Shown: positions 2,576-64,000 of the stretch, piece by piece
Layout: every line of letters starts with the position of its first letter
Position numbering within the stretch: position 1 is the stretch's first letter
Source: Nitrosomonas sp. Nm84
GTDB taxonomy: Bacteria > Pseudomonadota > Gammaproteobacteria > Burkholderiales > Nitrosomonadaceae
NCBI RefSeq assembly: GCF_003201565.1
Contig: NZ_QJJP01000003.1
Span: 102,418-166,417 of the forward strand
Reading direction: 5' to 3'
DNA length: 64,000 nt
Translations under genes and position numbers: made by a program
The notes under the pieces: generated by a model
What the model saw: the letters and a program-made list of their open reading frames with translations, nothing else
The model's database searches: none
Told to the model about the DNA's origin: nothing

Positions 2576-2580
2576 ATTAA

Positions 2581-2713
2581 CAGGCTGTTGGAAAATGTTT
2601 TCGAAGCAGCCAATGCCCGAGAAAAACAGTCGAGAAAGCGTATGCGTAATAAATGAGCATTTGAGCTTGTTCTTAACACCGTAACGGCAATGCAGATAGT
2701 TTTCTTGCGCTTG
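2581..2713 (-). mobile_element. MITE-like dispersed element, copy 1 (reverse orientation)
   Basis: A 133-bp copy of the family described at 3695 and 44680, read in the opposite direction. It begins CAGGCTGTTG and contains the internal block GAGCTTGTTCTTAACACCGT. It is flanked on both sides by TTAA (2577-2580 and 2714-2717), a probable 4-bp target duplication. The right terminus has drifted. It starts 6 bp after the stop codon of the RTX gene. Confidence 0.7.
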
Positions 2714-2734
2714 TTAAGTAATTGTTAAGAAACA

Positions 2735-2759
2735 GAACGCCTGATTTAATCAGGCGTTC
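2735..2759. terminator. Bidirectional hairpin terminator between the RTX gene and rluB
   Basis: A perfect 11-bp inverted repeat (GAACGCCTGAT / ATCAGGCGTTC) with a 3-nt loop lies between two convergent genes. On the minus strand it is followed by a T-rich run, so it most likely ends rluB transcription. On the plus strand the following bases are AT-rich but not a T tract. Confidence 0.6.
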
Positions 2760-2816
2760 ATAATATCGCTCTCACATAGTGGTTTTTATGCCCACTCAAA
2801 GCAACAAAGAAACAAA

Positions 2817-3647
2817 TTACGCAATCAAACCCAACAATCGCCGAGTCTCTTTCTCATCCAATTCCAACCACTGTCCGCGTTTAATGCGTGGCGGCAAATT
2901 GATCGGACCAAAACGCACGCGCATTAAGCGGCTGACTGACAGTCCAACTGCTTCAAACATGCGTCGTACTTCACGATTCTTACCTTCTTTCAGGATGACG
3001 CGATACCAGTGATTGATCCCCTCGCCGCCTTGCTCGGCCAGATAAGAAAAAGCCGCGCGACCATCCGCCAAATCAACGCCCGTAGTCAGCTGCGCCATCT
3101 GCTCGTCAGTCAGTTTTCCCAATATCCTCACCGCGTATTCACGTTCCATTTCAAAACGTGGGTGCATTAGCCGGTTTGCCAGTGCACCGTCGGTGGTAAA
3201 AATGAGTAGACCGCTGGTATTAAAATCCAATCGCCCAATGGCAATCCATTTGGAAGACCGCAAATGCGGTAGCTTATCGAACACCGAAGGCCGGCCTTCC
3301 GGATCATGGCGACTGACGATTTCGCCTTCCGGCTTATGATACAGCAGAACCTTGGGCAAGCTTTCTTGCGGATTCAGCCGGATTACGCGTTTACCGATAC
3401 GCACGACATCACTCGCACCAACTCGATCGCCCACTATGGCAACTTTGCCGTTCACGCTGACTTCTCCGGTGGCAATCAATGCTTCCATTTCCCGCCGCGA
3501 CCCCAATCCTTTCTGCGCCAGGAGCTTTTGCAGCTTAACCGTGGCAGTTGTTAATACATTTGGGGATATGGGTGTTTGAACTATCGGTTTGGGTTGTGAA
3601 ACAGGTACTTTCTTCTTTACCGGCCTGGTTGGCCTCTTAACTTTCAT
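2817..3647 (-). CDS. rluB: 23S rRNA pseudouridine synthase, RluB family
   Basis: A 276-residue protein with a basic, proline-rich N-terminal tail, an S4 RNA-binding domain (about residues 36-90, KLLAQKGLGSRREMEALI) and an RsuA-type catalytic domain. The catalytic aspartate is in GRLDFNTSGLLI, and KNREVRRMFEAVG follows as expected. RluB isomerises one uridine (E. coli U2605) of 23S rRNA. Length is close to the E. coli enzyme. In relatives rluB often follows scpB; here nothing lies upstream except an intergenic element, so it appears monocistronic. RluB and the close relatives RluE/RluF/RsuA cannot be fully separated by eye, but the N-terminal extension and S4 domain favour RluB. Confidence 0.88.
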   Translation of the reverse strand: MKVKRPTRPVKKKVPVSQPKPIVQTPISPNVLTTATVKLQKLLAQKGLGSRREMEALIATGEVSVNGKVAIVGDRVGASDVVRIGKRVIRLNPQESLPKVLLYHKPEGEIVSRHDPEGRPSVFDKLPHLRSSKWIAIGRLDFNTSGLLIFTTDGALANRLMHPRFEMEREYAVRILGKLTDEQMAQLTTGVDLADGRAAFSYLAEQGGEGINHWYRVILKEGKNREVRRMFEAVGLSVSRLMRVRFGPINLPPRIKRGQWLELDEKETRRLLGLIA

Positions 3648-3694
3648 GGGTATGTCAATCCGGGAATATGCTCACAATAAAAACCACCATCTAA

Positions 3695-3833
3695 CAGGCC
3701 GATGAAAAACTATCTGCGTTGCCGCTACGATGTTAAGAACAAGCTCAAAATGCTCATCTATTATGCATAAACTGCACTTTTCTCCTGTTTCTGCCTTGTA
3801 TCGGCTGCCTCAAAAACGTTTTTCAACGGCCTG
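3695..3833 (+). mobile_element. MITE-like dispersed element, copy 2 (complete)
   Basis: A 139-bp non-coding element with inverted ends CAGGCCGATGAAAAAC and (from the other side) CAGGCCGTTGAAAAAC, 15 of 16 bases matching. It is flanked by direct CTAA repeats at 3691-3694 and 3834-3837. It lies in the otherwise gene-free 3648-4034 stretch between divergent rluB and the hydrolase gene. The rest of that stretch is AT-rich and probably holds both promoters; no other feature is clear. Confidence 0.8.
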
Positions 3834-4034
3834 CTAATAAAACCAAATAAGCAATTTTAAACTATTAAGTACCTCACCTTGCGCTTATCGTTAGCAATTG
3901 TTGAAATTCCGATACAAAAAGCCTATTTCAAACGAACACAACCATTATAAAATTGACGTCTTTCCGGGCATAATCCGGTGACAATAGATCCCAAAATACT
4001 GACCCATCGCTCAAGTGATTTTAAACAGAAAAAT

Positions 4035-5045
4035 ATGCCAGCAACTACAATCCCGCTTTGTACAAAGCCATATACAGCACCATCCTGGTTACCTGGAGGA
4101 AATGCCCAAACGCTTTACCCTTATTTCAATAAACCTGCGCAGCTTTTCACGTATCGACGTGAGCGCTGGGAACTCGATGACGGCGATTTTATCGACGTGG
4201 ATTGGGTGGATGGATCGACTGACGCGCCGCTGGTGATATTCTTCCATGGTCTCGAAGGCGGATCATCCAGTCACTATATTCTGAGCATCATCAATGACCT
4301 AAGAAATTATAACTGGCGCAGTGCCGTGATTCATTTCCGCGGTTGTTCCGGCATACCTAATCGGCTGTCGCGAGCTTATCATGCGGGTGATTCCGTTGAA
4401 ATTGACTGGATGTTGCAGCGACTCATAAACCAGACACAAGCAGTAAGCGCCACTCAGCCAATCTATGTCATTGGTGTATCGCTCGGCGGCAATGCACTGC
4501 TGAAATGGCTGGGTGAGAAAGGGGAACACGCCAAAGAAATAGTGGACGGTGTGGCTACTGTGTCCGTACCACTTGATCTGGCTGCTGCCGGTTCAGCATT
4601 AGACACTGGCTTCAACCAAGTGTATACACGCCATTTTCTGGATACTCTCAAGGACAAAGCATTCGATAAACTGGCGCAATTCCCTGGATTGTTTGATGCC
4701 AAAGCACTCAAAAAATGTTCATCGATTTATGATTTTGATAATTTGGTCACAGCACCGCTGCACGGTTTCAAGAATACCGATGAGTATTGGCGGCTATCGA
4801 GCAGTAAGCAATGGCTGGGACATATCAAAGTCCCCACGCTGGTGATTAATGCACGCAACGATCCTTTCATGTCGGCATCGGCATTACCGTCTCGGCACGA
4901 AGTATCCTCCGCTGTCACGCTGGAATTTCCACCAGAAGGCGGTCACGCCGGATTCATGCAAGGCCCATTCCCTGGAAAATTAAGTTGGCTGCCTAAAAAG
5001 ATACTCAGCTTCTTTTATCACAACTGCCAGCTAAATGGACGCTGA
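4035..5045 (+). CDS. YheT-family alpha/beta-hydrolase
   Basis: A 336-residue alpha/beta hydrolase. The N-terminus APSWLPGGNAQTLYP is typical of the YheT/ABHD1-3 family. The oxyanion region is HGLEGGSSSHY, the nucleophile serine is in GVSLGGNALLKWLG, the acid is in NARNDPF and the catalytic histidine is in EGGHAGF. The family is thought to act as lipid or ester hydrolases; the substrate here is unknown. An in-frame GTG at 3978 would add 19 residues unlike the family, so the ATG at 4035 is preferred, although neither has a strong ribosome-binding site. It is followed by 89 bp before the next gene on the same strand. Confidence 0.82.
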   Translation: MPATTIPLCTKPYTAPSWLPGGNAQTLYPYFNKPAQLFTYRRERWELDDGDFIDVDWVDGSTDAPLVIFFHGLEGGSSSHYILSIINDLRNYNWRSAVIHFRGCSGIPNRLSRAYHAGDSVEIDWMLQRLINQTQAVSATQPIYVIGVSLGGNALLKWLGEKGEHAKEIVDGVATVSVPLDLAAAGSALDTGFNQVYTRHFLDTLKDKAFDKLAQFPGLFDAKALKKCSSIYDFDNLVTAPLHGFKNTDEYWRLSSSKQWLGHIKVPTLVINARNDPFMSASALPSRHEVSSAVTLEFPPEGGHAGFMQGPFPGKLSWLPKKILSFFYHNCQLNGR

Positions 5046-5134
5046 TCGATACGTATGATGGAACTCGGTCATCGTGTTTTCCGGTAAAATGCATCAGAAA
5101 ATGCAAAAACGAAGCATTAAAACGGAGTGATGAA

Positions 5135-6160
5135 ATGATCGCTTATCCCCCCATTAACTATTTGAATGATCTTACGATTGATCAAATAAATTCTGCAATA
5201 CCACTTACTTTTGCACAGTACATACCGCCCATTAACGGTTTTGGCGATATGTTGAATTGGGATTTTAGAGCTTTCTTTTCTACATCAGTCAGCAATACCG
5301 GTGCGCGCAATATGTTTGCCTTTGAAGGCACCGCAGGCGCGACCTACGATATATTCAGCCAGAGCTTCTTTGATCCGTTTGTTTTGCAGCTTTTCGATGA
5401 GCAGGGCAGAATGATTGCGACAGACGATTCCAGCGGCGCTGCTGGCACTGACCACATTCGCTTTATGGCGTCCCATGACGGTATCTATTACGTTGATGCA
5501 TCATGGCGCCAAGGTTTTGCAGATATTGATAAGTATGCTGTCATTACTGCCTATGAAGATCTTGATACCATACCGTCAACTTTTCCAAGCTCATCCCCAT
5601 CAGTTTCTGTATTTAGCCCCACAAATTCTGCGACAGATGTATCCGTCGACAGCAACATTGTCCTGACATTTAGTGAAGCGATCCAAAGAGGTTCGGGATC
5701 GATTGCGTTAGTAACCGCTGACAATGTATTAGTAGAATCTTTTGACGCCGCATCCAGCAGTAATCTATCGATCTCGGACAAAACACTGACCATCAATCCA
5801 ACCAATAATCTATCCAACAATACGCAATACTTTGTCACGCTGGAGTCCAGTTCTATTAAAGACTTGACCGGTCACGGCAACGCTCAAATGGCATCCTATA
5901 GTTTCACCACCACAGCACAAACGCCTGGCACAAACGCCGACAGAATTTTTGACTGGGGAGAACGTCAATATCCAGATTTATTCTCAGATCACCCGGAATC
6001 GCAGGACGTATTTGGTTATCATGCCCGCATCTATTCCAATGGTAATGCGCTCGGCGAACAAAACGATCATATTTATTTTTATGATGGCGGCACGAGGGAT
6101 ATCATTCTGGTCGGCACGACAACCGATTTCCTGCCGCAGGCAATCGCAGCAGGCTACTAG
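5135..6160 (+). CDS. Surface-type protein with bacterial Ig-like domain and betaproteobacterial C-terminal module
   Basis: A 341-residue protein. Residues ~50-140 resemble a PPC-like beta domain (TYDIFSQSFFDPFVLQLFDE, YYVDASW). Residues ~160-255 form a Big_5/SbsA-like Ig domain (PTNSATDVSVDSNIVLTFSE ... YFVTLESSSIKDLTG). The last ~75 residues (DRIFDWGERQYPDLF ... DHIYFYDGG) match a module I recognise from exported proteins of Nitrosomonas and other betaproteobacteria. No cleavable signal peptide is visible at the N-terminus, which is odd for such domains; type I or another leaderless export is possible. A GGAG-type site precedes the ATG. The stop codon TAG forms part of the CTAG target of the following repeat element. 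Confidence 0.7.
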   Translation: MIAYPPINYLNDLTIDQINSAIPLTFAQYIPPINGFGDMLNWDFRAFFSTSVSNTGARNMFAFEGTAGATYDIFSQSFFDPFVLQLFDEQGRMIATDDSSGAAGTDHIRFMASHDGIYYVDASWRQGFADIDKYAVITAYEDLDTIPSTFPSSSPSVSVFSPTNSATDVSVDSNIVLTFSEAIQRGSGSIALVTADNVLVESFDAASSSNLSISDKTLTINPTNNLSNNTQYFVTLESSSIKDLTGHGNAQMASYSFTTTAQTPGTNADRIFDWGERQYPDLFSDHPESQDVFGYHARIYSNGNALGEQNDHIYFYDGGTRDIILVGTTTDFLPQAIAAGY

Positions 6161-6272
6161 TAGGCCGTATGGATTATTCTCGTTAAAAAAACTATCTACG
6201 TCGCCACTATCAAACAGGCTCAAAATGCTCATTGATCACACAGAAACTGCACTTTTTCGCCTGTTTTTGCCT
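6161..6272 (+). mobile_element. MITE-like dispersed element, copy 3 (right end missing)
   Basis: It starts TAGGCCGTATGG directly after CTAG (6157-6160), whose last three bases are the stop codon of the upstream gene. It retains the blocks ACTATCTACGTCGCCACTAT and GCTCAAAATGCTCATT. Similarity stops in TTTTTGCCT near 6272, and the next gene begins 38 bp later. Confidence 0.65.
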
Positions 6273-6310
6273 AACACCAACTGAAAAACAAAAAGATAGA
6301 GAAAACTGTA

Positions 6311-7561
6311 ATGACTCAACAAAATCTGAAATTATTCGGCATGGAAGCGGCAAAAGGCCGATGGATATTTGTGCTGGTTGGGCTGTTAATCAATGTTTGC
6401 CTGGGATCCATTTATGCCTTCAGTGTTTTCAGAAAACCTCTGGAAACTTTATGGGAAATCACGTCGAGCCAGAGCGGTTACCCGTTCATGGTTTTTCTGG
6501 CGGTATTTGCGATTACAATGCCGTTGGCAGGCAATCTGATCGCCCGATGGGGCCCGAAAAACACAGCGATGCTGGGCGGTTTATTGTCGGGAACCGGGTG
6601 GATTGCGGCAAGCTTTTCTGCGGATATTGCAACTTTGACTATCTTGTACGGCGTTATCGGTGGTGCCGGAGTCGGCATCGTGTACGGTTGCCCGATTGCC
6701 GTGGTCGCCAAATGGTTCCCGCAACAAAGCGGATTGGCAATCGGCTCAACTGTAATGGGCTTTGGCGTATCGGCATTGTTGATCGCGCCGCTTATGAAGG
6801 CAATGATCCATCATCCGGAAATTGGCATACTGCATACGTTTTTGTACCTAGGGATCGCGTTTGTAGTGATCGTCACGCTGTTGGCACAGCTATTGCGTTT
6901 TCCATCCGCCGAGTGGGCATCAGCGGAAATAACGACAACATCCACTGTAACGACTGCAATACCCTCCTTAAATCTCAGCCGGCAGGATATGCTCAAAAGC
7001 GGTAGCTTCTATGCGCTATGGGCAACATACACGATCGGTTGTTTGGCTGGATTGATGGCAATCGGCATTGCATCCCCGGTCGGAACCGAAATAGCGAAGC
7101 TGGACGCAACAATGACTGCATTTGCCGTTTCATTGTTTGCAGTATTTAATGGTCTCGGGCGACCGATATTTGGTGCTGTAACCGATAAGCTGGGGCCTAA
7201 GCATACCGCAATGGTTTCATTTGCCATGATTCTTGGCGTCTCGCTATTGATGTCATTTTTCGGGCAAGATAACGCCCTGCTATACTTATTTGCATTCTGT
7301 GTGCTGTGGATGTGCCTGGGCGGATGGTTAGCGATTGCGCCGACATCCACCGGTATATTCTTTGGAAAAAAGCATTATGCGCAGAATTACGGGCTGGTGT
7401 TTACCGCCTATGGTGCCGGTGCCATCCTGGGAACACTGCTATCCGGCAATATCAAAGATATCACCGGCAGCTATTTGAACACCTTTCCAATCGTCGCAGG
7501 GCTGTCAATACTTGGAATAATTATCGCCGCGATTGGATTAAATCCCGTCAAGCGCCAATAA
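6311..7561 (+). CDS. MFS transporter, oxalate/formate antiporter (OFA) family
   Basis: A 416-residue integral membrane protein with about 12 hydrophobic segments. The first, GRWIFVLVGLLINVCLG followed by SIYAFSVFRKPLE, is typical of the OFA group of the major facilitator superfamily. The loop motif FNGLGRPIFGAVTDKLGPKH also fits the family. OFA members exchange small carboxylates such as oxalate and formate, or lactate and pyruvate; the substrate cannot be read from the sequence. The gene stands alone between a repeat copy and a gene-poor stretch. The start ATG is followed by a short hydrophilic tail before the first membrane segment, as expected. Confidence 0.85.
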   Translation: MTQQNLKLFGMEAAKGRWIFVLVGLLINVCLGSIYAFSVFRKPLETLWEITSSQSGYPFMVFLAVFAITMPLAGNLIARWGPKNTAMLGGLLSGTGWIAASFSADIATLTILYGVIGGAGVGIVYGCPIAVVAKWFPQQSGLAIGSTVMGFGVSALLIAPLMKAMIHHPEIGILHTFLYLGIAFVVIVTLLAQLLRFPSAEWASAEITTTSTVTTAIPSLNLSRQDMLKSGSFYALWATYTIGCLAGLMAIGIASPVGTEIAKLDATMTAFAVSLFAVFNGLGRPIFGAVTDKLGPKHTAMVSFAMILGVSLLMSFFGQDNALLYLFAFCVLWMCLGGWLAIAPTSTGIFFGKKHYAQNYGLVFTAYGAGAILGTLLSGNIKDITGSYLNTFPIVAGLSILGIIIAAIGLNPVKRQ

Positions 7562-7566
7562 GCCAG

Positions 7567-7887
7567 CTACACTACAATGTTGGAGACCGTTATCATAATT
7601 AAGGTTGAAGTAAGGTAGCGAACTCCAGCGTAGCCGTTGACCGGAATGAATAAAAATGCCACTGCAATCGCTGCACGTCCGTCGATGGCTGGGTGAATAA
7701 ACGACTCCGCGCCAAGATCGCGGAGAATCACAAGTTCAGTATATTCGGTCAGTTGTGACTCGGATCGGACCATAAATAGACTGTCCACCCATACCTTCAG
7801 AGACCACAATGCATGATTAACAGCTATCCATTCTTCAAAGTTGGCATAACAAAAAAGCTGTTGTTGAGAGTGTTCAACTTCGCGCAT
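7567..7887 (-). CDS. Hypothetical protein (doubtful)
   Basis: A possible 106-residue protein on the minus strand, the only substantial frame in the 7562-7990 stretch. The middle (YTELVILRDLGAESFIHPAI) is mixed and the C-terminal third is hydrophobic, suggesting one membrane segment. No family is recognised and no ribosome-binding site is evident before the ATG. It converges head-on with the MFS gene, ending 5 bp from it. It may be a chance frame or a lineage-specific small protein. Confidence 0.25.
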   Translation of the reverse strand: MREVEHSQQQLFCYANFEEWIAVNHALWSLKVWVDSLFMVRSESQLTEYTELVILRDLGAESFIHPAIDGRAAIAVAFLFIPVNGYAGVRYLTSTLIMITVSNIVV

Positions 7888-7932
7888 AATCTATAAGATG
7901 CGTGGCTTTTATACAATTTGACCGAAGTGAGT

Positions 7933-7975
7933 GGTTTTTCAACAGCCATTTAACAGGCTGTGAATGATTTTTCAG
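7933..7975. repeat. Ends-only fragment of the dispersed element
   Basis: The right end of the element (GTTTTTCAACAGCC) is followed after 3 bp by TTAA and then a left end (CAGGCTGTGAATGATT) with no interior. This makes a short inverted repeat just upstream of the hemerythrin gene. It may be the scar of an excised or internally deleted copy, or the junction of two copies. Confidence 0.45.
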
Positions 7976-7990
7976 GGAAGACTATTTATT

Positions 7991-29449: not shown

Positions 29450-29489
29450 ATTCGTTGAAAAACGTTTTCGAGACAACCATACACGGCAT
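29450..29489 (-). repeat. Fragment of the dispersed element, copy 5
   Basis: GTTGAAAAACGTTTTCGAGA followed by a weakly matching ACAACCATACACGG corresponds to the terminal ~40 bp of the element read from its right end. The rest is missing. It lies ~125 bp upstream of dnaE. Confidence 0.5.
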
Positions 29490-29614
29490 CGGCGCCGAAC
29501 GCATATACCTGCGCGTTTTCTCCAAAGAACCGGCAGGAAGTGGTTTCAACATCATGTAGAATAGCGCTCGATTGTATAAATTACAGAGTTACCGCAGACT
29601 CGAATTGTCACATC

Positions 29615-32600
29615 ATGCCAACCCATCCTGCTTTTATTCATTTACGCTTGCACAGCGAATATTCCATTCTGGACGGCACGATCCGTATTCCCGAAGTGGT
29701 TGCAAAAGCGGTGGCAGATCAAATGCCCGCACTCGCGTTAACCGATCTTGCCAATTTGTTTGGTCTGGTAAAATTCTATCAAACTGCCAATAAAAACGGC
29801 ATCAAACCGATTCTCGGGTGCGATGTCTGGATCGCCAATGAATCTGACCGCAACAAGCCGATCCGGCTGCTGCTGCTATGCCAATCCCACGCCGGTTATT
29901 TGTTGTTATCCCGCCTGCTATCACGCGCCTATCGTGAAAATCAACATCATGGCAGAGCAGAAATCAAACCATCCTGGCTACAGCCTGCTGAATGGGGATC
30001 GCAAGGACTCATCGCGTTATCAGGTGCCCGCTTGGGCGATATCGGATCAGCCATTTTGCAAAACAATCTGCAGCAAGCTGAAACTCAAGCGCAAAAGTGG
30101 GCTGACCTGTTTCCCGATCGCTTTTATATTGAAATCCAGCGCGATGGCCATGCGCATGAAGCCATGCTGGTACAACAATCGCTGGTGCTCGCCCAGAAAT
30201 TTGATCTACCCGTTGTCGCCACGCAAGCGGTGCAATATCTGAATGCTGACGAATACCGCGCACATGAAGCGCGTGTCTGTATCGCCGAAGGGTATATTCT
30301 GGGAGACAAGCGTCGTCCCAAAAGTTTTACCGAACAGCAGTATTTCAAAACCCAAGCGGAAATGGCGCAATTGTTTGCCGATATTCCCAGTGCATTAACG
30401 AATACCATAGAAATTGCCAAACGCTGCAACCTGACGCTGGAATTGGGCGTGAACCGGCTTCCGCTGTTTCCCACACCCAATAACGAGAGTTTAGAGCAAT
30501 ATTTGCGCGATCAGGCTGCAGCAGGACTGGAGCAGCGCATGTTGCAACTGTTTCCGGATGTCGAGATACGCACTGGCAAACTGCACCAATACCAATCTCG
30601 CCTCGAGTTTGAAGTGAACACCATCATCCAGATGGGATTTGCCGGGTATTTTTTGATCGTCGCTGATTTTATCAACTGGGCCAAGCACAACAATGTGCCG
30701 GTGGGACCTGGGCGCGGCTCCGGTGCTGGCTCACTGGTGGCGTATTCATTGGGAATCACCGATCTCGACCCGCTGCGTTACGATTTATTGTTTGAACGCT
30801 TTCTAAATCCCGAACGCATATCCATGCCCGATTTTGACATCGATTTCTGCCAGGATCGGCGCGAATTGGTGATCGAATACGTCAAGCAACGTTATGGCAC
30901 GGGAAAAGTCTCGCAAATCGCCACCTTCGGCACAATGGCGGCCAAGGCGGTGATCCGCGATATCGGCCGGGTGCTGGATTTGCCGTACAACTTTGTCGAC
31001 CAGTTGGCCAAACTGGTACCGTTTGAACTCGGCATGACGTTAAAAAAAGCGCGCCAGCTCGAACCACAACTCAATCAGCGTGCGGAAGCTGAAGAAGATG
31101 TGCGCAATTTGCTGGAACTGGCGGAAAGCCTCGAAGGCATCACGCGCAATATCGGCATGCATGCCGGCGGCGTGCTCATCGCCTCCAGTGAAATCACCGA
31201 TTTTTGTCCGATCTACTGCACGGAATCGGCTGATTCGGTTGTCAGCCAACTAGACAAGGACGATGTCGAGAAAATCGGTCTGGTAAAATTCGACTTTCTG
31301 GGGCTGCGCACGCTGACCACCTTGGATCGCGCTGTCGGCTATATCCGCCAATCGCGTCAAAACGCCAAGCCTGCTACTAAAACCGATCCAGCTGCGCAAC
31401 TTTTCTCGCTGGAGACGCTGCCGCTTGACGATGCACTCACCTACGCATTGATGCGCAAAGGCAATGCAGTCGGCATTTTTCAGTTTGAATCGCGCGGCAT
31501 GATCGATTTATTACAGAAAGCAAAACCCGATTGTTTTGAGGATATCATCGCCTTAGTAGCGCTATATCGTCCCGGCCCGATGGATCTGATTCCGGAATTC
31601 ATCGACCGCAAGCATGGCAAGAAAATGATTGAATATCTGGATCCGCGCCTGGAACCGATATTGGGTCCAACGTATGGCATCATGATTTATCAGGAACAAG
31701 TCATGCAGATTGCGCAGGTGATCGGCGGCTACAGCCTCGGCAGTGCCGATTTATTGCGCCGTGCCATGGGCAAGAAGAAAGTCGAAGAAATGGCGCAACA
31801 ACGCGATATCTTCGTTGCCGGTGCGATTAACAATGGCTTGGGTAAGAATCAGGCCACCGAACTGTTCGGTCTAATGGAAAAATTTGCGGGCTACGGCTTC
31901 AACAAATCTCATGCCGCCGCATATGCGCTGATCGCGTTTCAAACGGCCTATCTGAAAGCGCACTACCCGTCTGAATTTATGGCCGCGTGTTTGTCCGCCG
32001 ACATGGACGACACCGACAAAGTGCATATTTTTGTTGAAGATAGCAACGCCAACGGCTTGACGATTCTGCCTCCCGATATCAATCACTCCGGCTACCGTTT
32101 CATCCCGGTCGATAACCAAACCATCCGTTTCGGTCTCGGTGCGGTGAAAGGCACCGGGGAATCCGCAATCAGCTCGATCATCGCCGTGCGCGAACAAATG
32201 GGACCTTTTACTGATTTATTCGATTTCTGTAACCGAGTCGACCGGCGCATCGCCAATCGCCGCGTGATGGAATCATTGATCCGCGTCGGCGCATTTGACG
32301 CCATTAATCCTAACCGCGCCAGCCTGCTGGCTTCTGTCGGTTTGGCGATAGAATCCGCCGAACAAATCAGTCAATCCGTCAGTCAGGCCAATTTATTCGG
32401 CGAAGCTGAGGATCAGTCGCACATGCAACCACAACTGATTCCTGCGAATGTATGGTCTGACCGGGAAAAACTGCGCCATGAGAAAATCAGCCTGGGCTAC
32501 TATTTCAGCGGACACCCTTTTGATACCTACGCCGTAGAACTGAAGCGCTTCATCCGCACCCGCTTGGATCAGTTGTACCCAAACCGCGAACCGCAACTGC

Positions 32601-33124
32601 TCGCCGGAATCATTCATTCCATTCGGGTCCAAATGACGCGCCGCGGTAGAATGGGTGTCATCAATCTGGACGATGGCAAAGCGCGCGTCGAGCTGGTTAT
32701 TTTCAGCGAATTGTTCGATGCCAATCGTGCATGGTTAAAAGAAGATCAGCTTCTGATCGCAGAAGCGAAAGTCAGCAACCGTGGATACGGTGGCGAAGAA
32801 AGCGACGAATTACGAATTACCGCCGAGCAGCTCTACGATTTCGCCGGAATACGCTCGCGCTTTGCCAAGCAAATCAGAATTCATTGCAATCCCTCTACCC
32901 TCGACCAGGTTTCCAGCCTCAAAACATTACTGGCACCCTTCACCAGCCAAACGCAAAAATCCGGTAATAATCTCCCAGCCTGCCCGGTGACACTTATCTA
33001 TCACAATGACTCTGCCAGCGGCGAGCTGGAATTGGGGAACGACTGGCGGGTGAATCTGCATGATGATTTGCTGCAATCGTTAACTGCGCATTTTAAAACT
33101 GAAAATATTGAGATCGTTTATTGA
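29615..33124 (+). CDS. dnaE: DNA polymerase III alpha subunit
   Basis: 1169 residues, close to E. coli DnaE (1160). In order: PHP domain (FIHLRLHSEYSILDG; the metal-site residues are partly replaced, LTDLANLFG, so proofreading must come from a separate epsilon subunit), palm with GPGRGSGAGSLVAYS and the catalytic MPDFDIDFCQDRR, thumb and fingers, helix-hairpin-helix region (FGLGAVKGTGESAI), OB fold (~1000-1080) and C-terminal tau-binding part. The ATG at 29615 begins MPTHPAFIHL as in relatives; an upstream in-frame start at 29540 adds 25 unlikely residues. No strong ribosome-binding site is visible. This is the replicative polymerase. Confidence 0.96.
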   Translation: MPTHPAFIHLRLHSEYSILDGTIRIPEVVAKAVADQMPALALTDLANLFGLVKFYQTANKNGIKPILGCDVWIANESDRNKPIRLLLLCQSHAGYLLLSRLLSRAYRENQHHGRAEIKPSWLQPAEWGSQGLIALSGARLGDIGSAILQNNLQQAETQAQKWADLFPDRFYIEIQRDGHAHEAMLVQQSLVLAQKFDLPVVATQAVQYLNADEYRAHEARVCIAEGYILGDKRRPKSFTEQQYFKTQAEMAQLFADIPSALTNTIEIAKRCNLTLELGVNRLPLFPTPNNESLEQYLRDQAAAGLEQRMLQLFPDVEIRTGKLHQYQSRLEFEVNTIIQMGFAGYFLIVADFINWAKHNNVPVGPGRGSGAGSLVAYSLGITDLDPLRYDLLFERFLNPERISMPDFDIDFCQDRRELVIEYVKQRYGTGKVSQIATFGTMAAKAVIRDIGRVLDLPYNFVDQLAKLVPFELGMTLKKARQLEPQLNQRAEAEEDVRNLLELAESLEGITRNIGMHAGGVLIASSEITDFCPIYCTESADSVVSQLDKDDVEKIGLVKFDFLGLRTLTTLDRAVGYIRQSRQNAKPATKTDPAAQLFSLETLPLDDALTYALMRKGNAVGIFQFESRGMIDLLQKAKPDCFEDIIALVALYRPGPMDLIPEFIDRKHGKKMIEYLDPRLEPILGPTYGIMIYQEQVMQIAQVIGGYSLGSADLLRRAMGKKKVEEMAQQRDIFVAGAINNGLGKNQATELFGLMEKFAGYGFNKSHAAAYALIAFQTAYLKAHYPSEFMAACLSADMDDTDKVHIFVEDSNANGLTILPPDINHSGYRFIPVDNQTIRFGLGAVKGTGESAISSIIAVREQMGPFTDLFDFCNRVDRRIANRRVMESLIRVGAFDAINPNRASLLASVGLAIESAEQISQSVSQANLFGEAEDQSHMQPQLIPANVWSDREKLRHEKISLGYYFSGHPFDTYAVELKRFIRTRLDQLYPNREPQLLAGIIHSIRVQMTRRGRMGVINLDDGKARVELVIFSELFDANRAWLKEDQLLIAEAKVSNRGYGGEESDELRITAEQLYDFAGIRSRFAKQIRIHCNPSTLDQVSSLKTLLAPFTSQTQKSGNNLPACPVTLIYHNDSASGELELGNDWRVNLHDDLLQSLTAHFKTENIEIVY

Positions 33125-33435: not shown

Positions 33436-36369
33436 ATGAACCACAATCTATTCAATAGCCTGCATGAATTATCCATTGCACCGGGCAACAGCGCGAAATA
33501 CTATTCGCTTCCGGCGTTGGAAAAAAGTGGGGTTGGCAAGATTTCCTGTCTGCCGGTTTCGATTCGAATCATATTAGAATCAGTTCTACGCAATTATGAC
33601 GACAAAAAGATTACCGAAGCGCATATCCGGCAATTGGCAAATTGGCAGCCCAACGCCGATAGAGTCGACGAAATACCGTTTGTCGTTTCGCGCATCGTTT
33701 TGCAGGATTTCACCGGTGTACCGCTGCTGGTGGATCTGGCTGCCATGCGCAGTGCAGCGGTAAAACTGGGAAAAGATCCTAAGCGGATAGAACCATTGGT
33801 ACCGGTTGATCTGGTCGTTGATCATTCTATTCAGATTGATTATTACGGAACGGAAGATGCGCTGGAGCGCAACATGGAAATCGAATTTTCCCGTAATAAC
33901 GAACGCTATCAATTTATTAAATGGGGAATGCAAGCCTTTGACACGTTCAAAGTGATACCGCCTGGAATTGGTATCATACATCAGGTCAACCTCGAATATC
34001 TTGCCCGGGGCGTACATCATAAGGATGGAATAGTCTTTCCTGATACTTTGGTAGGCACCGACTCGCATACCACGATGATTAACGGTATCGGTGTCGTCGG
34101 TTGGGGTGTTGGCGGCATTGAGGCTGAGGCCGGCATGCTGGGGCAGCCGGTTTATTTCCTGACACCCGATGTCGTGGGTGTCAACTTGACCGGTCACCTA
34201 CGTGAGGGCGTCACCGCAACGGACCTGGTTTTAACGATCACCGAAATGCTGCGCAAAGCCAATGTGGTCGGCAAATTCGTTGAGTTTTTCGGGGAAGGAA
34301 CGGCTTCGCTGACATTACCTGATCGCGCCACGATTGCCAATATGGCGCCTGAATATGGCGCAACCATGGGTTTCTTTCCGGTTGATGACGTCACCATTGA
34401 ATATTTCAGAGGTACGGGGCGTAGCCAGGAAGAAATTACCGCATTCCAGGCTTATTTCAAAGCGCAGGGGATGTATGGCATTCCACGCCAGGGAGATATT
34501 AATTACACCCGCGAGCTAGCGCTTGATTTAGGCTCAGTCACAACGTCATTGGCAGGCCCCAAGCGCCCACAGGACCGCATTGAACTCGCTGCAATCCAAT
34601 CCAAGTTCACTGAACTCTTTAATAAGCCTGTCACGGAAAGCGGCTATGGGAAACATGATGATGATATCAATCAACGCTATTTGACGCGTGATATCCATAC
34701 TCAGGATCCTGATGTTTGCACGCACATCGGTCCTGACAATATCGATGAAAATCGACGATCACCGTCCGGCCCGCACAATGCTGCACCTGCGACGAACAAT
34801 AATCGGCCAGCGAAAAAAACTGCGCCGGCAGAACGACGCATGGTCTCGCGCAACATCACGGAAATGACCAGTAATCGCCCGACACCTCACGCCATTGATT
34901 TACCCGTTGATGAAAGCAGCTCCCACATTAATTTGGGTCATGGTGATGTATTGATTGCTGCCATTACGTCCTGCACCAACACATCCAATCCAAGCGTTCT
35001 CCTCGCGGCAGGATTATTGGCCAAAAAAGCGGTTGAAAAAGGATTGTCGGTGAAACACTATATCAAAACATCGCTGGCGCCCGGTTCGCGTGTGGTCACC
35101 GATTATCTGACCGTCACGGGACTGCTGCCCTATCTTGATCAACTTGGTTTTGATGTGGCCGGTTATGGATGCACGACATGCATCGGCAATGCAGGGCCAC
35201 TGGCGGACCCAATTGAAGAGGCTATTGTTAAGAATGACTTGGTTTGTGCGGCTGTACTGTCAGGAAATCGCAATTTCGAAGCCCGCATTCACCCGAATAT
35301 TCGCGCCAATTTCTTAGCCTCACCGCCGCTGGTTGTCGCCTATGCCATCGCGGGCAGTATTTTAAAAGATCTTACCAGCGAGCCTTTAGGTATCGGCAAA
35401 AATAATCAGCCTGTGTGGCTTAAAGATGTCTGGCCCAGCAGCGCAGAAATCCATGCACTGCTGAAATTTGCCACCAACGCAGACACTTACCGGCAACTCT
35501 ACAGCAACCTGACCAAGGATTATCAACTGTGGAATGATGTCACTTCCGTCACCGGACAAACTTACAATTGGCCGCAATCCACGTATATCGCGGAACCGCC
35601 TTTTTTCCAGGATTTTTCACTGCAGCCGGCGGCTTCCAATGGTACGATTAGCATCCAAAATGCCTACGCACTGGGCATTTTTGGTGATTCTGTTACAACC
35701 GACCATATCAGTCCGGCTGGCTCCATCAAGGATACTTCGCCGGCTGGACGTTATCTGCTGGATCATGATGTCGCCAAAACCGATTTTAATAGCTACGGTG
35801 CCCGTCGAGGCAACCATGAAGTGATGATGCGCGGCACATTTGCCAATGTTCGCATCAAGAATCTCATGATTCCCGGTAGTGAAGGCGGTGTCACGTTATA
35901 TCAAGGTGCCACCGATGCTGAGCCTGTGCAAATGAGCATTTATGATGCCGCCATGCAATACCAATCACATGGTATTCCCACCGTTGTTTTTGGCGGTAAG
36001 GAATATGGCACCGGCTCCAGTCGCGACTGGGCTGCCAAGGGAACACAGTTACTGGGCGTCAAGGCGGTCATTGCAGTTAGTTTTGAACGCATACACCGCA
36101 GCAATCTGCTCGGCATGGGTGTGCTGCCATTACAATTTAAAGATAACGACAACGTTAATTCATTGGGTATTCAAGGTAACGAGCGGTTTGACATTATGGA
36201 TTTGGATAACATCCAACCACAAAAAGATGTCACCTTGGTCATTCGAAGGAAAGACGGCACCAGCAAATCGGTTCAGCTGCTCTGCCGCATTGATACCGCC
36301 ATCGAGGTCGATTATTACCGGAGTGGCGGCATTTTGCCTTATGTACTTAGAGAACTCATGAATCATTAA
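33436..36369 (+). CDS. acnA: Aconitate hydratase A
   Basis: 977 residues of the AcnA/IRP type. The 4Fe-4S ligands are the Cys of [18 protein letters not shown] and the two in [15 protein letters not shown]; active-site motifs [20 protein letters not shown] and [20 protein letters not shown] are intact. It interconverts citrate and isocitrate in the TCA cycle. It is ~85 residues longer than E. coli AcnA (891) because of a low-complexity insertion (about residues 400-500, e.g. [20 protein letters not shown]) in front of the SCTNTSN motif. AGGA before the ATG. The stop TAA forms part of the TTAA target of the following repeat copy. Confidence 0.95.
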
Positions 36370-36424
36370 CAGGCTTTGAAAAACGATCTGCGTTGTCGCT
36401 ACCGTGTTAAAAACAGGCTCAAGT
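36370..36424 (+). repeat. MITE-like dispersed element, copy 6 (left half)
   Basis: It starts CAGGCTTTGAAAAACGATC directly after TTAA (36366-36369), of which TAA is the acnA stop codon. It keeps the TCTGCGTTGTCGCTACCGTG block and ends soon after GCTC. The right half is absent. Confidence 0.65.
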
Positions 36425-36457
36425 GGGTCAAAACGCATCAGTCATCTGTAACAAACA

Positions 36458-44336: not shown

Positions 44337-44675
44337 GTCATTCTCCTAAGCAAACTCTCCGGTGTTCCGGTTGAGTCATTCAAGCAATTTTGGCTGTTTT
44401 ACTGCGCACTTAATTTTTAATATATATCAACACTCTCTCCTAAATAGGATCCTGATACATAGGGAGTTTTCTATAGATGTGCTATCAAAAACAACTTGAT
44501 AACGATTGGGTAACATGATTCTTTATAGCAGCACTTCGAATTTTATTTGTCGATGAAATAGTAATCTGTACTTACATCCTGGAATCAGACAGTAAACGCC
44601 ACGATTCTCGCCTTCCTTGCCCAGGATCTATAGATATTCTTACTGGACTGGCTTGAGACACGTTGTTACCACTCT
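44337..44675. other. Intergenic stretch upstream of the porin
   Basis: AT-rich, without a credible frame. It should contain the porin promoter on the minus strand; no single motif stands out by eye. Confidence 0.4.
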
Positions 44676-44679
44676 CTAG

Positions 44680-44819
44680 CAGGCCGTTGAAGAACTATCT
44701 GCGTTGCCGCTACGGTGTTAAAAACAAGCTCAAAATCCTCATTTATTACGCATAAACTGCGCTTTCTCGCCTGTTTTTGCCTTGTATCGGCTGCCTCGAA
44801 AACGTTTTTCAACGACCTA
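44680..44819 (+). mobile_element. MITE-like dispersed element, copy 7 (complete)
   Basis: A 140-bp copy, nearly identical to copy 2. Ends are CAGGCCGTTGAAGAAC and, read from the right, TAGGTCGTTGAAAAAC. It is flanked by direct CTAG at 44676-44679 and 44820-44823. The stop codon of the small lipoprotein gene lies 8 bp beyond the right-hand CTAG. Confidence 0.8.
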
Positions 44820-44830
44820 CTAGTGAATTT

Positions 44831-45202
44831 TTATTGATTGGACCAGTGCTTAAGTGTTCCATTACTATCAAAGAACAAATAAATTCCCTTTCCGATACCG
44901 ATAATATCAGATCCATTAATCGGTAAATTAGATCCAAAAAGAACGTATTCCCAGGTATCTCCACTTGGGCTCTTGCGCGTTCCATAGCACCATTTACAAG
45001 GAAGTCCCCAGGAGGCAATGACTTGCTCTTTTGTCATACCAGCAACCAACTCTTTCTGATCGATGGCTTTGCGTATTTCAGCCGACATATTGGCATCCGC
45101 CAGCACTTCTTGCCTGATTCGGTTTTCTCGCACCGCTCCACATCCGTGCAGCAGTAAGATTGCTACTATCACTATTGAGGTAATAAATAATCTGTTATTC
45201 AT
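44831..45202 (-). CDS. Small lipoprotein, SmpA/OmlA-like
   Basis: 123 residues from the ATG at 45202: a lipoprotein signal with lipobox LLLHGCGAV (Cys ~20). The segment VAGMTKEQVIASWGLPCKWC matches the start of SmpA/BamE-like domains (GMTxxQVxxxLGxP), and DTWEYVLFG continues it. Two extra cysteines in the CKWC motif are unusual. In-frame starts at 45214 and 45274 exist, but the signal peptide fits 45202 best. Probably an envelope protein; not BamE itself, which has other neighbours. Confidence 0.68.
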   Translation of the reverse strand: MNNRLFITSIVIVAILLLHGCGAVRENRIRQEVLADANMSAEIRKAIDQKELVAGMTKEQVIASWGLPCKWCYGTRKSPSGDTWEYVLFGSNLPINGSDIIGIGKGIYLFFDSNGTLKHWSNQ

Positions 45203-45622: not shown

Positions 45623-45718
45623 ATGTCTACACTCGTCACTCGTCACTCGTCACTCGCCCCGCTCTCGATTTTACTAGACCTGCCGTTTTACCGGGCGGTA
45701 ATTTCGTGTAGTAAATGA
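45623..45718 (+). CDS. Orphan 31-residue frame with strong ribosome-binding site (relic?)
   Basis: ATG at 45623 is preceded by GAAGGAG at ideal spacing. The peptide begins MSTLVTRHSSLAPLSILLDL and stops at a TGA that belongs to the start of a dispersed-element fragment. The DNA has a short tandem repeat (CGTCACT three times). It looks like the 5' end of a gene cut off by the element or by deletion; no family is recognised. Confidence 0.3.
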   Translation: MSTLVTRHSSLAPLSILLDLPFYRAVISCSK

Positions 45719-45776
45719 ATATCCTGAGCCTGTTTTAATACCATAGCAGCAACGTAGATAGTTTTTCGACGGCCTG
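45716..45776 (-). repeat. MITE-like dispersed element, copy 8 (half)
   Basis: The blocks GAGCCTGTTTTAATACC, AGCAGCAACGTAGATAG and TTTTTCGACGGCCTG match the left half of the element in reverse orientation. The other half is missing, and the flank at the intact end (TGAA) does not fit the YTAR target. Confidence 0.6.
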
Positions 45777-60179: not shown

Positions 60180-60194
60180 TTATAAGATATTCCT

Positions 60195-60914
60195 ATGAGT
60201 CTACAAGATAAACCAGCCACTCACTTATCTGTAGATAAATCCTGGTCAGCAAAAGAGTCATGGCGCTTATTCAGAATTATGGCAGAGTTTGTCGAAGGAA
60301 CGGAGCGTCTTGATGCTATTCAACCCGCCGTAAGTATTTTTGGCAGTGCGCGCACTACGCCCGATAGTCCGTACTATCAGTTAGCCGAGCAAATTGCCAA
60401 GCAACTCTCTGATGCCGGATTCGCGGTCATTTCCGGTGGTGGTCCCGGCATCATGGAAGCTGCCAATAAAGGCGCCTACTTCGGCAAATCACCCAGTATC
60501 GGTCTAAATATTCAACTACCTCACGAGCAGCATCGTAACGCTTATCAAGACATCAGTCAGACGTTCAGGCATTTCTTTGCACGTAAATACATGTTTGTTA
60601 AATTTGCTACTGCTTACGTGGTATTACCAGGTGGTTTCGGCACATTGGACGAACTGATGGAAGCGCTGACATTGGTACAAACCGGAAAAACTCGCAAAAT
60701 GCCCATCATTCTGGTCTACTCGCAATTTTGGCAGGGATTACTCGACTGGTTTCAGCAGATGCTGATTTCCGAAGGTTGCATCTCACAGGCAGACATGAGC
60801 CTCATTCAAGTCATTGATGAACCCGATCAAGTAGTCAATGCAATTTTTCAATATTATGAAACCAGTGGATTTGAACCCACTGTCGCTGAAAAAGAAGTTC
60901 AGCTCAATCTTTAA
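60195..60914 (+). CDS. LOG-family (TIGR00730) Rossmann-fold protein
   Basis: 239 residues with the LOG motifs SGGGPGIMEAANKGAYFGKS and PGGFGTLDELMEALTLVQ. Related proteins are cytokinin-activating phosphoribohydrolases or nucleotide 5'-monophosphate nucleosidases (PpnN-like). The start is 15 bp from the divergent polA start, so the promoters must overlap or lie inside the neighbouring genes. It is followed closely by DUF2782, as in other betaproteobacteria. Confidence 0.88.
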   Translation: MSLQDKPATHLSVDKSWSAKESWRLFRIMAEFVEGTERLDAIQPAVSIFGSARTTPDSPYYQLAEQIAKQLSDAGFAVISGGGPGIMEAANKGAYFGKSPSIGLNIQLPHEQHRNAYQDISQTFRHFFARKYMFVKFATAYVVLPGGFGTLDELMEALTLVQTGKTRKMPIILVYSQFWQGLLDWFQQMLISEGCISQADMSLIQVIDEPDQVVNAIFQYYETSGFEPTVAEKEVQLNL

Positions 60915-60971
60915 CCGTCATCTATGATTTTAGGTAGAATACAAAATAATCCTGACTCACCGGGAATCGAC

Positions 60972-61364
60972 ATGTACCAACTTATTCTTATATTGTTCCT
61001 CAGCGCTGTGATCCCTGCTATGGCGCAATCCGATCCTCCCAAGCAGTCGAAAAAGTCTTCGCGGCCGGATAATTTGATACCGTTACCCGAAATACCTGAG
61101 TTACCACCGGATCCGGATCAGCCGCCGATTCCGCCGGATATTCAACCCGACCCTGAGCTGGAAACACAAGTCACCATCATAAAACGTGGAGAAGACACGA
61201 TTGAAGAACACCGCATCGACGGCGAATTAATCATGATTAAAGTTATTCCACGTATTGGCCCACCCTACTATCTGAAAAAAAATACCGTTGGAAGCAATCC
61301 TGTACACACGGACGAAGCTGGTATCAATGTCAGTCCACCGATGTGGCAGTTTTTGAAATTCTAA
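60972..61364 (+). CDS. DUF2782 periplasmic protein
   Basis: 130 residues from the ATG at 60972, which begins a signal peptide (MYQLILILFLSAVIPAMAQS). A strongly proline-rich stretch follows (PLPEIPELPPDPDQPPIPPD). The C-terminal ~70 residues are the DUF2782 domain (VTIIKRGEDTIEEHRIDGEL, MIKVIPRIGPPYYL). A longer frame from 60924 lacks the signal at its start. The function is unknown; the gene regularly sits between polA and thrB in this group. Confidence 0.8.
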   Translation: MYQLILILFLSAVIPAMAQSDPPKQSKKSSRPDNLIPLPEIPELPPDPDQPPIPPDIQPDPELETQVTIIKRGEDTIEEHRIDGELIMIKVIPRIGPPYYLKKNTVGSNPVHTDEAGINVSPPMWQFLKF

Positions 61365-61444
61365 TGTCAATAAAGCGCGCAACAACACACGGCATAATGA
61401 AATTTCTCTGTTTCCATTTTTACGCTTTCTTATCCTGCTAATAC

Positions 61445-62395
61445 ATGTCTGTTTTCACACCCGTTACCGATAGCCAGCTCGCAACTTGGTTAACAGATTA
61501 CGCACTGGGCCAATTGATCAATTTACAGGGCATCTCCTCTGGTATTGAAAATACCAATTATTTTGTCACGACGACGCAAGGCAAGTTTGTATTGACGTTA
61601 TTTGAAAAATTGACCAACCGTGAATTGCCTTATTATCTGAATCTGATGGCGCATCTATCGCGGCATGGTATTCCTTGCCCTGCGCCGATTCCCAGGGTCG
61701 ATCATACATTACTGGGCACACTGAACAATAAGCCGGCCACGATTGTTACTTGTTTACCCGGACAATCAGTCACACACCCAACCGTAACACAATGCACAGA
61801 AGTCGGCACAATATTGGCCAAAATGCACCTAGCAGGAAGCTCTTATCACGCCACAATGGATAATCCGCGCGGCTTAACATGGTGGCAGGCCAAAGCCCCC
61901 GAAATCATCCCTTTCTTGTCAGCCGATGAAAAATCGCTACTGACCGCCGAATTGAATTTTCAGGCATCGCGACAATCCATTGTGCTACCTCATGGTGTTA
62001 TCCATGCCGACTTATTCCGCGACAATGTCTTGCTCACAGACGACACAATCGGTGGCATCATCGATTTTTATTTTGCCTGTAACGACACTTTCTTATACGA
62101 TCTGGCAATTACTGTGAATGATTGGTGTATGACTGAAGGCAAAATGTTGGATGAAACCTATACACTTGCACTGATCAAGGCGTATCATGCCGTTCGACCG
62201 TTATCTTCAATCGAACACGGCGCGTGGTCGGCCATGTTGCGTGCCGGCGCTTTACGTTTCTGGATTTCCCGATTATATGACTATCATTTGCCGCGCCCGG
62301 GAGAACTAACGCATGCCAAAGACCCAACGCATTTCAGAGAAGTATTAAAAAATCATGCTACAGACATAGCCAATATAGAGAAACTGTGGATTTGA
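61445..62395 (+). CDS. thrB: Homoserine kinase (APH-fold type)
   Basis: 316 residues of the aminoglycoside-phosphotransferase fold: [20 protein letters not shown] at the N-terminus, the Brenner-type catalytic loop [14 protein letters not shown] and metal site [12 protein letters not shown]. This is the ThrB form used by betaproteobacteria and many pseudomonads instead of the GHMP kinase of E. coli. It phosphorylates homoserine in threonine synthesis. It lies 80 bp after DUF2782. Confidence 0.93.
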
Positions 62396-62440
62396 ATCAT
62401 TATTAGAAGCTGTTCTGTCGATTTAACTGGAGAAATATTC

Positions 62441-63304
62441 ATGGAAATTCATCAAGTCAACGCCAAACAGGGATTGCAATGGATCCTAAGCGGCTTCTAC
62501 CTGTTCCGTAAAGCACCATTGGCTTGGATAATGGTTTGCTTCACACTGGTATTGATCGCCATGAGCATGTCGTTCATACCGTTACTTGGGAAATTTGTTT
62601 TTACTTTAATCTCTCCAGCATTCTTGGCCGGAATCATGCTGGGCTGCAAAGATATGGAACAAGGCAAGCCGCTTGAGATTGCGCATTTACTGGCTGCTTT
62701 CAGAACCAGTCCGGCACCACTCATTACGATTGGCGGTGTCTATCTGATCGGGCAAATTTTAATCATCGGACTGGTCATGTTGATCGGCGGCTCGCAGATG
62801 ACCGACATGTTATTATATGGAAAAAGAGTCGACGAAAGTGAACTGATGGGCGTAATGAGCAACATGCTGACATCCTCATTGATTGCACTGACACTCTCCA
62901 TCCCGTTGATGATGGCCTCCTGGTTTTCTCCCCTGTTGGTGATATTTCATAACGTTCCGCCGATCGTTGCCATGCAAAGAAGCTTTTTTGCCTGCTTGAG
63001 AAACTTCATCCCATTCCAAATCTATGGCATTACGCTTATCGTGTTAACAATCCTTTGCCTGATGCCCTATGGCATTGGTTTGATCGTTCTGATTCCCGTC
63101 ATGTTTGCCTCCATTTACGTCAGTTACAAAGATATTTTTCTAGCTGAGCGGCTTCAGTTCAAATACAACCAAGCTGATCAGGATTATCAAAAAGCCAACT
63201 GGAGTAATGGCGACGAAACATCTGCCCGGAGTGAAAACGAAACAAAACCGGATGCCATCACCACAGAAGACAAACCAAAAGATTCGAGCGAACGCGATAA
63301 ATGA
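62441..63304 (+). CDS. BPSS1780-family membrane protein
   Basis: 287 residues: N-terminal VNAKQGLQWILSGFYLFRKA, then about six membrane segments to ~residue 235, and a charged hydrophilic C-terminal tail. The pattern matches the BPSS1780/YciC-like family that follows thrB in betaproteobacteria. GGAG before the ATG. The last codons (ERDK and stop) run into a copy of the dispersed element, whose ATAAATGAGC sequence supplies the TGA, so the native C-terminus may have been replaced. Confidence 0.82.
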   Translation: MEIHQVNAKQGLQWILSGFYLFRKAPLAWIMVCFTLVLIAMSMSFIPLLGKFVFTLISPAFLAGIMLGCKDMEQGKPLEIAHLLAAFRTSPAPLITIGGVYLIGQILIIGLVMLIGGSQMTDMLLYGKRVDESELMGVMSNMLTSSLIALTLSIPLMMASWFSPLLVIFHNVPPIVAMQRSFFACLRNFIPFQIYGITLIVLTILCLMPYGIGLIVLIPVMFASIYVSYKDIFLAERLQFKYNQADQDYQKANWSNGDETSARSENETKPDAITTEDKPKDSSERDK

Positions 63305-63362
63305 GCATTTTGAGCCCGTTTTTAATACCGTAGCAGCAACGCAGATAGTTTCTCAACACCTG
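63296..63362 (-). repeat. MITE-like dispersed element, copy 9 (half)
   Basis: Left half of the element in reverse orientation: GAGCCCGTTTTTAATACCG, AGCAGCAACGCAGATAG and TTTCTCAACACCTG, followed by CTAG at 63363-63366. Read on the minus strand, that CTAG contains the uvrD stop codon. The other side supplies the stop of the BPSS1780-family gene. Confidence 0.7.
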
Positions 63363-64000
63363 CTAGACTGCGGTCAATTTTGCATATTCAAGCAACAACC
63401 ACTTCGTTCCAGCATCGTTAAAATTGACTTGTACACGCGCTTCGCTGCCACTGCCTTCATAATTGATGATGACGCCCGTACCAAACTTGGCATGCAGCAC
63501 AGTTTGTCCGATTCTCCACGCACCGCCGGCAGGTCTCTTCTGGCTATCGGTTGTGGTTCTTAGCGTAGCTGCTGCGGCTTGATTAGCGGTATTTGCATAG
63601 TAGGGATGCAGACTCATTCCAGGCGCCGATTGCAGCCATTTCAAACAGCTTTCCGGAATTTCATCTAGAAAACGTGATGCGATGTTATAGCGGGTTTGAC
63701 CATGCAGCATGCGGCTTTGCGCAAAGCTTACATATAACCGTCGGCGGGCGCGTGTCATGGCTACGTACATCAGGCGTCTTTCCTCCGCGATGCCGTTCGC
63801 TTCATTTAAGCTGTTCTCATGCGGAAAAAGACCTTCTTCCAATCCACTCAGAAATACGCTATGAAATTCCAGTCCTTTGGCCGCATGAACCGTCATCAGT
63901 TGCAGCGCATCCTGACCGTTGCCGGCTTGATGCTCACCGGCTTCCAGCGAAGCATGCGCAAGAAATTCCGCCAAACTGTCATTTTCTGCTTCATGTACAA
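63363..64000 (-). CDS. uvrD: DNA helicase II UvrD, C-terminal part
   Basis: The frame is open to the right window edge; 212 residues are seen. QLMTVHAAKGLEFHSVFLSG is helicase motif V, and RRLMYVAMTRARRRLYVS is motif VI. The tail ends in the UvrD/PcrA C-terminal Tudor-like module (VLHAKFGTGVIINYEGSGSE, RVQVNFNDAGTKWLLLEYAK) that binds RNA polymerase. It unwinds DNA in mismatch and excision repair. Its TAG stop is part of the CTAG site beside repeat copy 9. Confidence 0.93.
   Translation of the reverse strand, partial: VHEAENDSLAEFLAHASLEAGEHQAGNGQDALQLMTVHAAKGLEFHSVFLSGLEEGLFPHENSLNEANGIAEERRLMYVAMTRARRRLYVSFAQSRMLHGQTRYNIASRFLDEIPESCLKWLQSAPGMSLHPYYANTANQAAAATLRTTTDSQKRPAGGAWRIGQTVLHAKFGTGVIINYEGSGSEARVQVNFNDAGTKWLLLEYAKLTAV

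Follow-up and report, generated by a model that had tools for sequence, protein, structure and literature searches.

A 140-bp, probably IS5-mobilised miniature element of Nitrosomonas sp. Nm84 and its conserved hairpin core, found with different ends in three phyla

Bacterial miniature inverted-repeat transposable elements (MITEs) are usually regarded as leftovers of a single insertion sequence (IS), and REP elements are short palindromic repeats present in many copies, mostly in intergenic regions. Here we analyse a repeat of about 140 bp in Nitrosomonas sp. Nm84, starting from a window of 64,000 nucleotides (the whole stretch analysed; contig NZ_QJJP01000003.1, positions 102,418 to 166,417) in which an earlier note, made from the letters alone, had described a MITE. 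A close functional analogue is MITEPsy1 of Pseudomonas syringae pv. phaseolicola which, according to the available part of its description, is 100 nt long with the ends GGAAGGTCTGAAAAAGCC / GTATCCTCTGAAAAAGCC, and transposes (10 of 460 trapped events) with a 4-nt duplication of CTAG or YTAA (PMC3189936). Its ends resemble those of ISPsy2, an element of the IS5 family; the authors believe that the ISPsy2 transposase moves MITEPsy1 and suspect that similar sequences are widespread (PMC3189936, same part). The Nitrosomonas repeat is likewise small and gene-free, with IS5-type ends and a 4-nt duplication, whereas that part of the paper describes neither a shared core nor end exchange nor cross-phylum spread for MITEPsy1; the interiors of the two elements were not compared. 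For IS5, a YTAR duplication is stated in the accessible part of PMC10359306. ERIC sequences are treated as MITEs in a review whose accessible part mentions neither Nitrosomonas nor MITEPsy1 (PMC10969869). The present repeat differs from ERIC and from REP/REPIN by its 4-bp target duplications and its IS ends, the comparison with REP being one of general features.

The best overall explanation of our observations is that the repeat is an IS5-mobilised MITE of about 140 bp with a cis-acting hairpin core that defines its lineage, and we regard this as probable. Two complete copies lie on the plus strand of the window. The first (3695-3833, core model match 3719-3808, 64.5 bits) has both terminal inverted repeats and is bounded by CTAA at 3691-3694 and 3834-3837; the second (44680-44819, core model match 44704-44794, 88 bits) is bounded by CTAG at 44676-44679 and 44820-44823. 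Direct reading thus confirmed the coordinates and duplications initially given for both. Their 139-140 bp leave no room for a transposase gene, in keeping with a MITE (shorter than about 300 bp, without transposase).

The genome is a draft of 3.47 Mb in 89 contigs. It contains 67 core-model matches at E<=1e-5 (150 of 1,283 candidates scored) and 40 matches by DNA search (40 of 99 candidates scored); both counts are lower bounds, the former omitting fragments without the core. The hundreds of copies per genome proposed from the window alone were therefore too high an estimate, the window, with four core-model matches, being denser in copies than the genome average. The 16-base end, allowing up to two mismatches, matched 98 times in the whole genome, compared with three for a reversed control. 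Among 34 distinct copies with both ends (fetched loci of this genome plus the window), 17 had identical YTAR flanks and 20 had YTAR on both sides, the chance of two equal YTAR flanks being about 2.5e-5 per copy. These flanks, together with the IS5-family elements described below, support the earlier view of a MITE with a 4-bp YTAR duplication that would be moved in trans. One presence/absence difference was seen: the spacer that separates the same gene pair in both genomes contains an element with GATCCTCTGAAAAAC ends in one congener (G012, L106) and lacks it in our genome (G000, L039). The spacers were too diverged for an exact empty target to be read, and we found no plasmid record spanning a site without the element.

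The earlier note had left the parent open while mentioning YTAR targets for part of IS5, and the question can now be answered at the family level. The end pattern, restricted to occurrences that lack the following C of the element, matched in 23 of 369 genomes of the class. Among 30 fetched loci, two (L307, L330) were copies of a 1,298-bp element in a distant genome (G263), with ends CAGGCTGTTGAAAAA (0-1 mismatch) and TTAA duplications. The transposase of this element, 363 aa long, belongs to the IS5 family (NF033581, 267.6 bits, the cut-off being 140) and was found four times at 100% identity. A transposase 58% identical to it occurs in a congener (G006) within two identical 1,313-bp elements, whose ends, CAGGCTGCTGAAAAAC, have two mismatches to CAGGCCGTTGAAAAA and whose duplications are TTAG and CTAG. 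The terminal inverted repeats of the MITE thus match those of an autonomous IS, and its 4-bp duplication is of the same kind. A full IS with nearly the same ends is present in a congener and in a more distant genome, whereas in the Nm84 genome a search with the G263-type transposase yielded nothing beyond a degenerate relative (C18:198-518, 35% identical, with one stop). In sum, the repeat shares its YTAR duplication, its ends and the transposase family implicated with YTAR-targeting members of IS5; it differs from them in lacking a transposase, and neither the G263 nor the G006 element contains its core motif, giving no sign that its interior derives from either.

Other candidate parents were tried. 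The Nm84 genome has 10 PF05598 and 12 PF01609 transposase matches, among which we found no convincing IS with the ends of the element. A weak pair of facing ends at L039 (four and three mismatches) was rejected, its left member lying inside an upstream gene that aligns with a congener. IS701 was also set aside: this genome lacks any match to its transposase domain, and the G006 element with that domain ends in TTCTACTTTGTCAGAT. That PF13546-transposase element occurs in nine copies (L110, L113, L115-L121), with CTAG on both sides at the boundaries compared. Of the 13 genomes behind the named loci, seven have PF01609 matches, and the 30 loci examined in the 13 yielded three IS5-/IS1182-family elements in three genomes (L284, L293, L286) that have YTAR duplications and whose ends partly resemble those of the core elements; most other IS ends differ, some with duplications of 7-9 bp. 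The L204 genome (P. oleovorans) contains an IS1182-family element (457 aa, ends CAGCCTGTCGGACTT, CTAG duplication) that matches part of the ends of the repeat, though less closely than the IS5-family elements do. We also observed MITE-like elements (L321, L322, L323, L327, L334) whose ends are of the CAGGCTGTTGAAAAA type, in some cases imperfectly; each is flanked by YTAR on one or both sides, and their interiors are unrelated.

The element interior is a long imperfect palindrome with, at its centre, an asymmetric hairpin core, CTCAAAATGCTCATTTA-loop-TAAACTNCGCTTTTTCG, carrying fixed mismatches. By DNA search, the element was found in 15 of 19 genomes of the genus (our own included) and in none of 12 genomes from the order's other genera, although the core model gave one match in one of these 12 (G025). 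Two named Nitrosomonas records (L191, L219) contain the same element. In the class sample, the core was detected by DNA in 29 of 276 genomes and 26 of 216 genera, a few of these matches being 21-23 bases long. Many distant matches span only the middle of the element, and the sequences there have the same core with different ends. At E<=1e-6, the core model R1 matched in 71 genomes of a Pseudomonadota sample of 299, representing 29 of 153 genera, with 38 of the 71 belonging to one family (f211) with weaker, uninspected matches.

A core pattern of 33 fixed bases retrieved at least 117 stretches, and the 80 matches listed for it include Alistipes, Bacteroidaceae, Rikenellaceae, Desulfobacterales and Desulfuromusa. 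The core thus occurs in three phyla, Pseudomonadota, Thermodesulfobacteriota and Bacteroidota. Eighteen chosen genomes carry 6-101 core copies each. Contamination is unlikely to be the cause of the Bacteroidota matches, since four genomes of this phylum have 17-45 copies each, with arms of their own. A shorter core pattern matched four stretches in viral contigs; no match to a window copy was found in phages and none to a Pseudomonas copy in Escherichia coli genomes. Two Pseudomonas plasmids carry the element, one at full length with TTAA on both sides and the other with extra inner bases.

Several individual loci deserve mention. On Pseudomonas plasmids, elements with GCTCTGTACG ends were seen in the vicinity of genes for coronafacic acid (L387, L388). 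Two near-identical copies about 1.4 kb apart, each flanked by YTAR on both sides, form a composite-like unit (L083/L097, G016:C9), and a 213-bp form has extra sequence in both arms with a nearly intact core (L310, G257). A stretch of 3,140 bases is 100% identical between two species of the genus (L085, G013:C4, and L024, on the 12.6-kb contig G000:C42), which may reflect a recently shared plasmid, another transfer or contamination.

The core and the rest of the element diverge very differently between genera. In a gap-aware count on 24 of 27 class-sample loci from other genera, with the core unfiltered, mean pairwise differences were 0.048/0.083 for the core halves, 0.466/0.474 for the arms and 0.50/0.47 for the ends (core versus arms, p 7e-13), the arms being about seven times more different than the core. 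Among 35 near-full copies of the Nm84 genome, the corresponding values were 0.126/0.129, 0.125/0.165 and 0.123/0.166 (p 0.10), and divergence from the consensus agreed with this gap-aware count. Inserted copies thus do not seem to be maintained for their core, while the spreading lineage keeps it. Since own copies drift evenly yet the core is nearly fixed between genera, the core would matter for propagation; judging from these sequence comparisons, we infer that it is kept because it aids the element rather than for service to the host.

This contrast bears on the idea that the repeat is a regulatory or REP-type sequence (a terminator, a protein-binding site or an interspersed palindrome) with each copy under selection for the host. 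The palindromic structure, the position of some window copies just past gene ends and a crude count hinting at a better-kept core in own copies would fit it, whereas the nearly equal core and arm differences in the gap-aware count, the target-site duplications and the matching IS ends do not. Moreover, YTAR includes TAA and TAG, and this target preference alone could place insertions at stop codons. We consider a host-serving repeat very improbable.

The shared core is joined to many different terminal repeats, some of which resemble the ends of other ISs. Two pairs of elements (L163/L183 and L235/L356) have interiors 93-95% identical over 114 positions, about one third of them core, while their ends are alike at only 6-7 of 13 positions; top-ranked pairs differing only in end phase were excluded from this comparison. 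The ends of 169 elements fell into 23 single-linkage clusters, although the largest (112) merges several end types and some end boundaries are probably wrong. The earlier account of the element was supported, but this association of one core with different ends had escaped it. As a separate observation, elements that differ in their ends can share a short insert, of 14 or about 19 bases, at an identical position next to the core (L221 and L224; L170, L269 and L270). Replacement of the ends would be the history behind this diversity.

An ordinary MITE, that is, an internally deleted IS with an inert interior whose core is shared through recent common ancestry and horizontal transfer, would account for the ends and duplications typical of IS5 and for the copies on plasmids. 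It would be harder to reconcile with the lack of the core motif in both ISs with matching ends, with arms that have diverged so much further than the core between genera, and with unrelated ends around the same core. We thus regard it as improbable.

The stem around the core changes in pairs, and the pairs are almost all Watson-Crick. After 159 places (loop of 7) had been dereplicated to 72 sequences, Watson-Crick pairing was found in 281 of the 360 cells of the five core-adjacent pairs, whereas column shuffles gave 152 +/- 7. Aligning 50 sequences (L104 and 49 of the 72) gave 27 pairs with 88.0% of cells paired, compared with 36-52% in slid controls, and 19 pairs with 215 cells changed on both sides, compared with 32-70 in slid and 67.7 in shuffled controls. 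G.T wobbles were rare in the flanking stem. Three internal irregularities were nearly fixed: TC/TC, a bulged T and TCA/CTSC; on the opposite strand, TC/TC corresponds to tandem G-A.

Part of this covariation could be produced by template-switch correction of palindromes instead of selection on the stem. The almost exclusively Watson-Crick pairs and the recurrence of short inserts near the same places of the core speak for such a process; TC/TC, the T bulge and TCA/CTSC nonetheless stay uncorrected across distant genera, and this persistence indicates that something opposes full correction. That correction rather than selection explains the paired changes appears unlikely to us. The core could alternatively encode a structured small RNA or itself function as RNA; the minus strand, on which TC/TC becomes tandem G-A, would be the most likely source. 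Folding favours the minus strand over the plus strand (z -6.58 against -3.86 in a window copy, and -2.86 against -1.74 in a stretch with most of a Pseudomonas copy), A.C mismatches (18) outnumber G.T (6), and MITE-derived small RNAs are reported for Coxiella in the accessible part of PMC10969869. Against an RNA, wobble pairs showed no enrichment (they make up 24 of the 79 non-Watson-Crick cells of the five inner pairs), the window had no Rfam match at the gathering score and 44660-44840 none at E<=10, while L203 and L187 gave only sub-threshold plant, animal or viral families (best, a plant microRNA precursor, E 0.00085). An RNA function is rather unlikely, and the lack of wobble enrichment leads us to favour a DNA hairpin.

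The preferred explanation, an IS5-mobilised MITE with a cis-acting core, could work as follows. An IS5-family transposase supplied in trans would cut at the CAGGCYGTTGAAAAAC ends and insert the element into YTAR, duplicating it. The core, rather than any one transposase, would constitute the lasting lineage, its ends being swapped now and then, and it would act in cis during propagation, most likely in the form of a DNA hairpin that is exposed when replication or excision leaves the DNA single-stranded. We hypothesise that a host or replication factor would recognise this hairpin, raising the odds of a copy being made or surviving.

Several points weigh against this explanation. No transposition was observed, and of the 34 paired copies 12 had YTAR on one side only and two on neither. 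No intact matching IS was found in the 89-contig draft, so that either the element is no longer mobilised in this genome or we overlooked the IS; an intact partner in the same genome is, however, not a requirement for a relic family. The search for partner ISs did not cover Bacteroidota ends, and we know of no factor that binds the core. The ends mostly track the interior lineage (27 label changes, compared with 56 after shuffling and a minimum of 22), which makes end exchange rare under a grouping that merges end types; the same merging makes the comparison of interior tree and end type a weak test. Loci retrieved with the 33-fixed-base pattern have an exact core by construction, so that its constancy has to be judged from other sets, and the paired stem changes could also come from template-switch repair. 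Finally, the set of 35 own copies consists of those in better condition, and a cruder ungapped, core-filtered count gave 0.064/0.107 for their core and 0.187/0.219 for their arms. We trust the gap-aware count over it, although a weak core effect may exist among own copies.

Eight of the nine copies initially listed in the window stand, the partial ones being accepted at E<0.001 in a profile search that gave no match at E<=0.001 in 20 Markov-shuffled windows. The copy at 2581-2713 (minus strand; core 2606-2690, 42.5 bits) is full-length, covering profile positions 13-141, and has TTAA on both sides (2577-2580 and 2714-2717) as first described, but one of its terminal repeats is decayed. It directly follows the open reading frame (ORF) 125-2575, which encodes an RTX calcium-binding repeat protein. 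A partial copy at 6187-6282 (plus strand; core model match 6195-6284, 47.9 bits) is situated between an ORF ending at 6160 and one starting at 6311. Fragments were found at 29452-29488 (minus), upstream of the DNA polymerase III alpha gene (29540-33124); at 36372-36428 (plus), starting 3 bases past the end of the aconitase gene (33436-36369); at 45705-45776 (minus), half an element with one end; and at 63293-63359 (minus), half an element. The ninth, at 7931-7947 (minus; first placed at 7933), is a lone end-like stretch without significance (E=9).

In open PMC text, we found no paper with the core strings (figures, supplements and closed papers lay outside this search) and one of the end strings only in two papers unrelated by title; no title or start of an abstract on such a core was found. 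A broader possibility, plausible although we hold it at somewhat less than even, is that the core is a portable hairpin module that parasitises ISs generally, exchanging ends and outliving any one transposase in at least three phyla, its mismatched, strand-asymmetric core raising copy gain in cis with IS5-/IS1182-like transposases. If true, such a module would act whichever IS5- or IS1182-like transposase it serves. The lasting part of this repeat is its interior, which has hardly changed in sequence from phylum to phylum whereas the ends vary, and model R1 provides an annotation tool for a common repeat. The resulting claim, that the host or the transposition cycle would recognise a specific mismatched hairpin, is testable.

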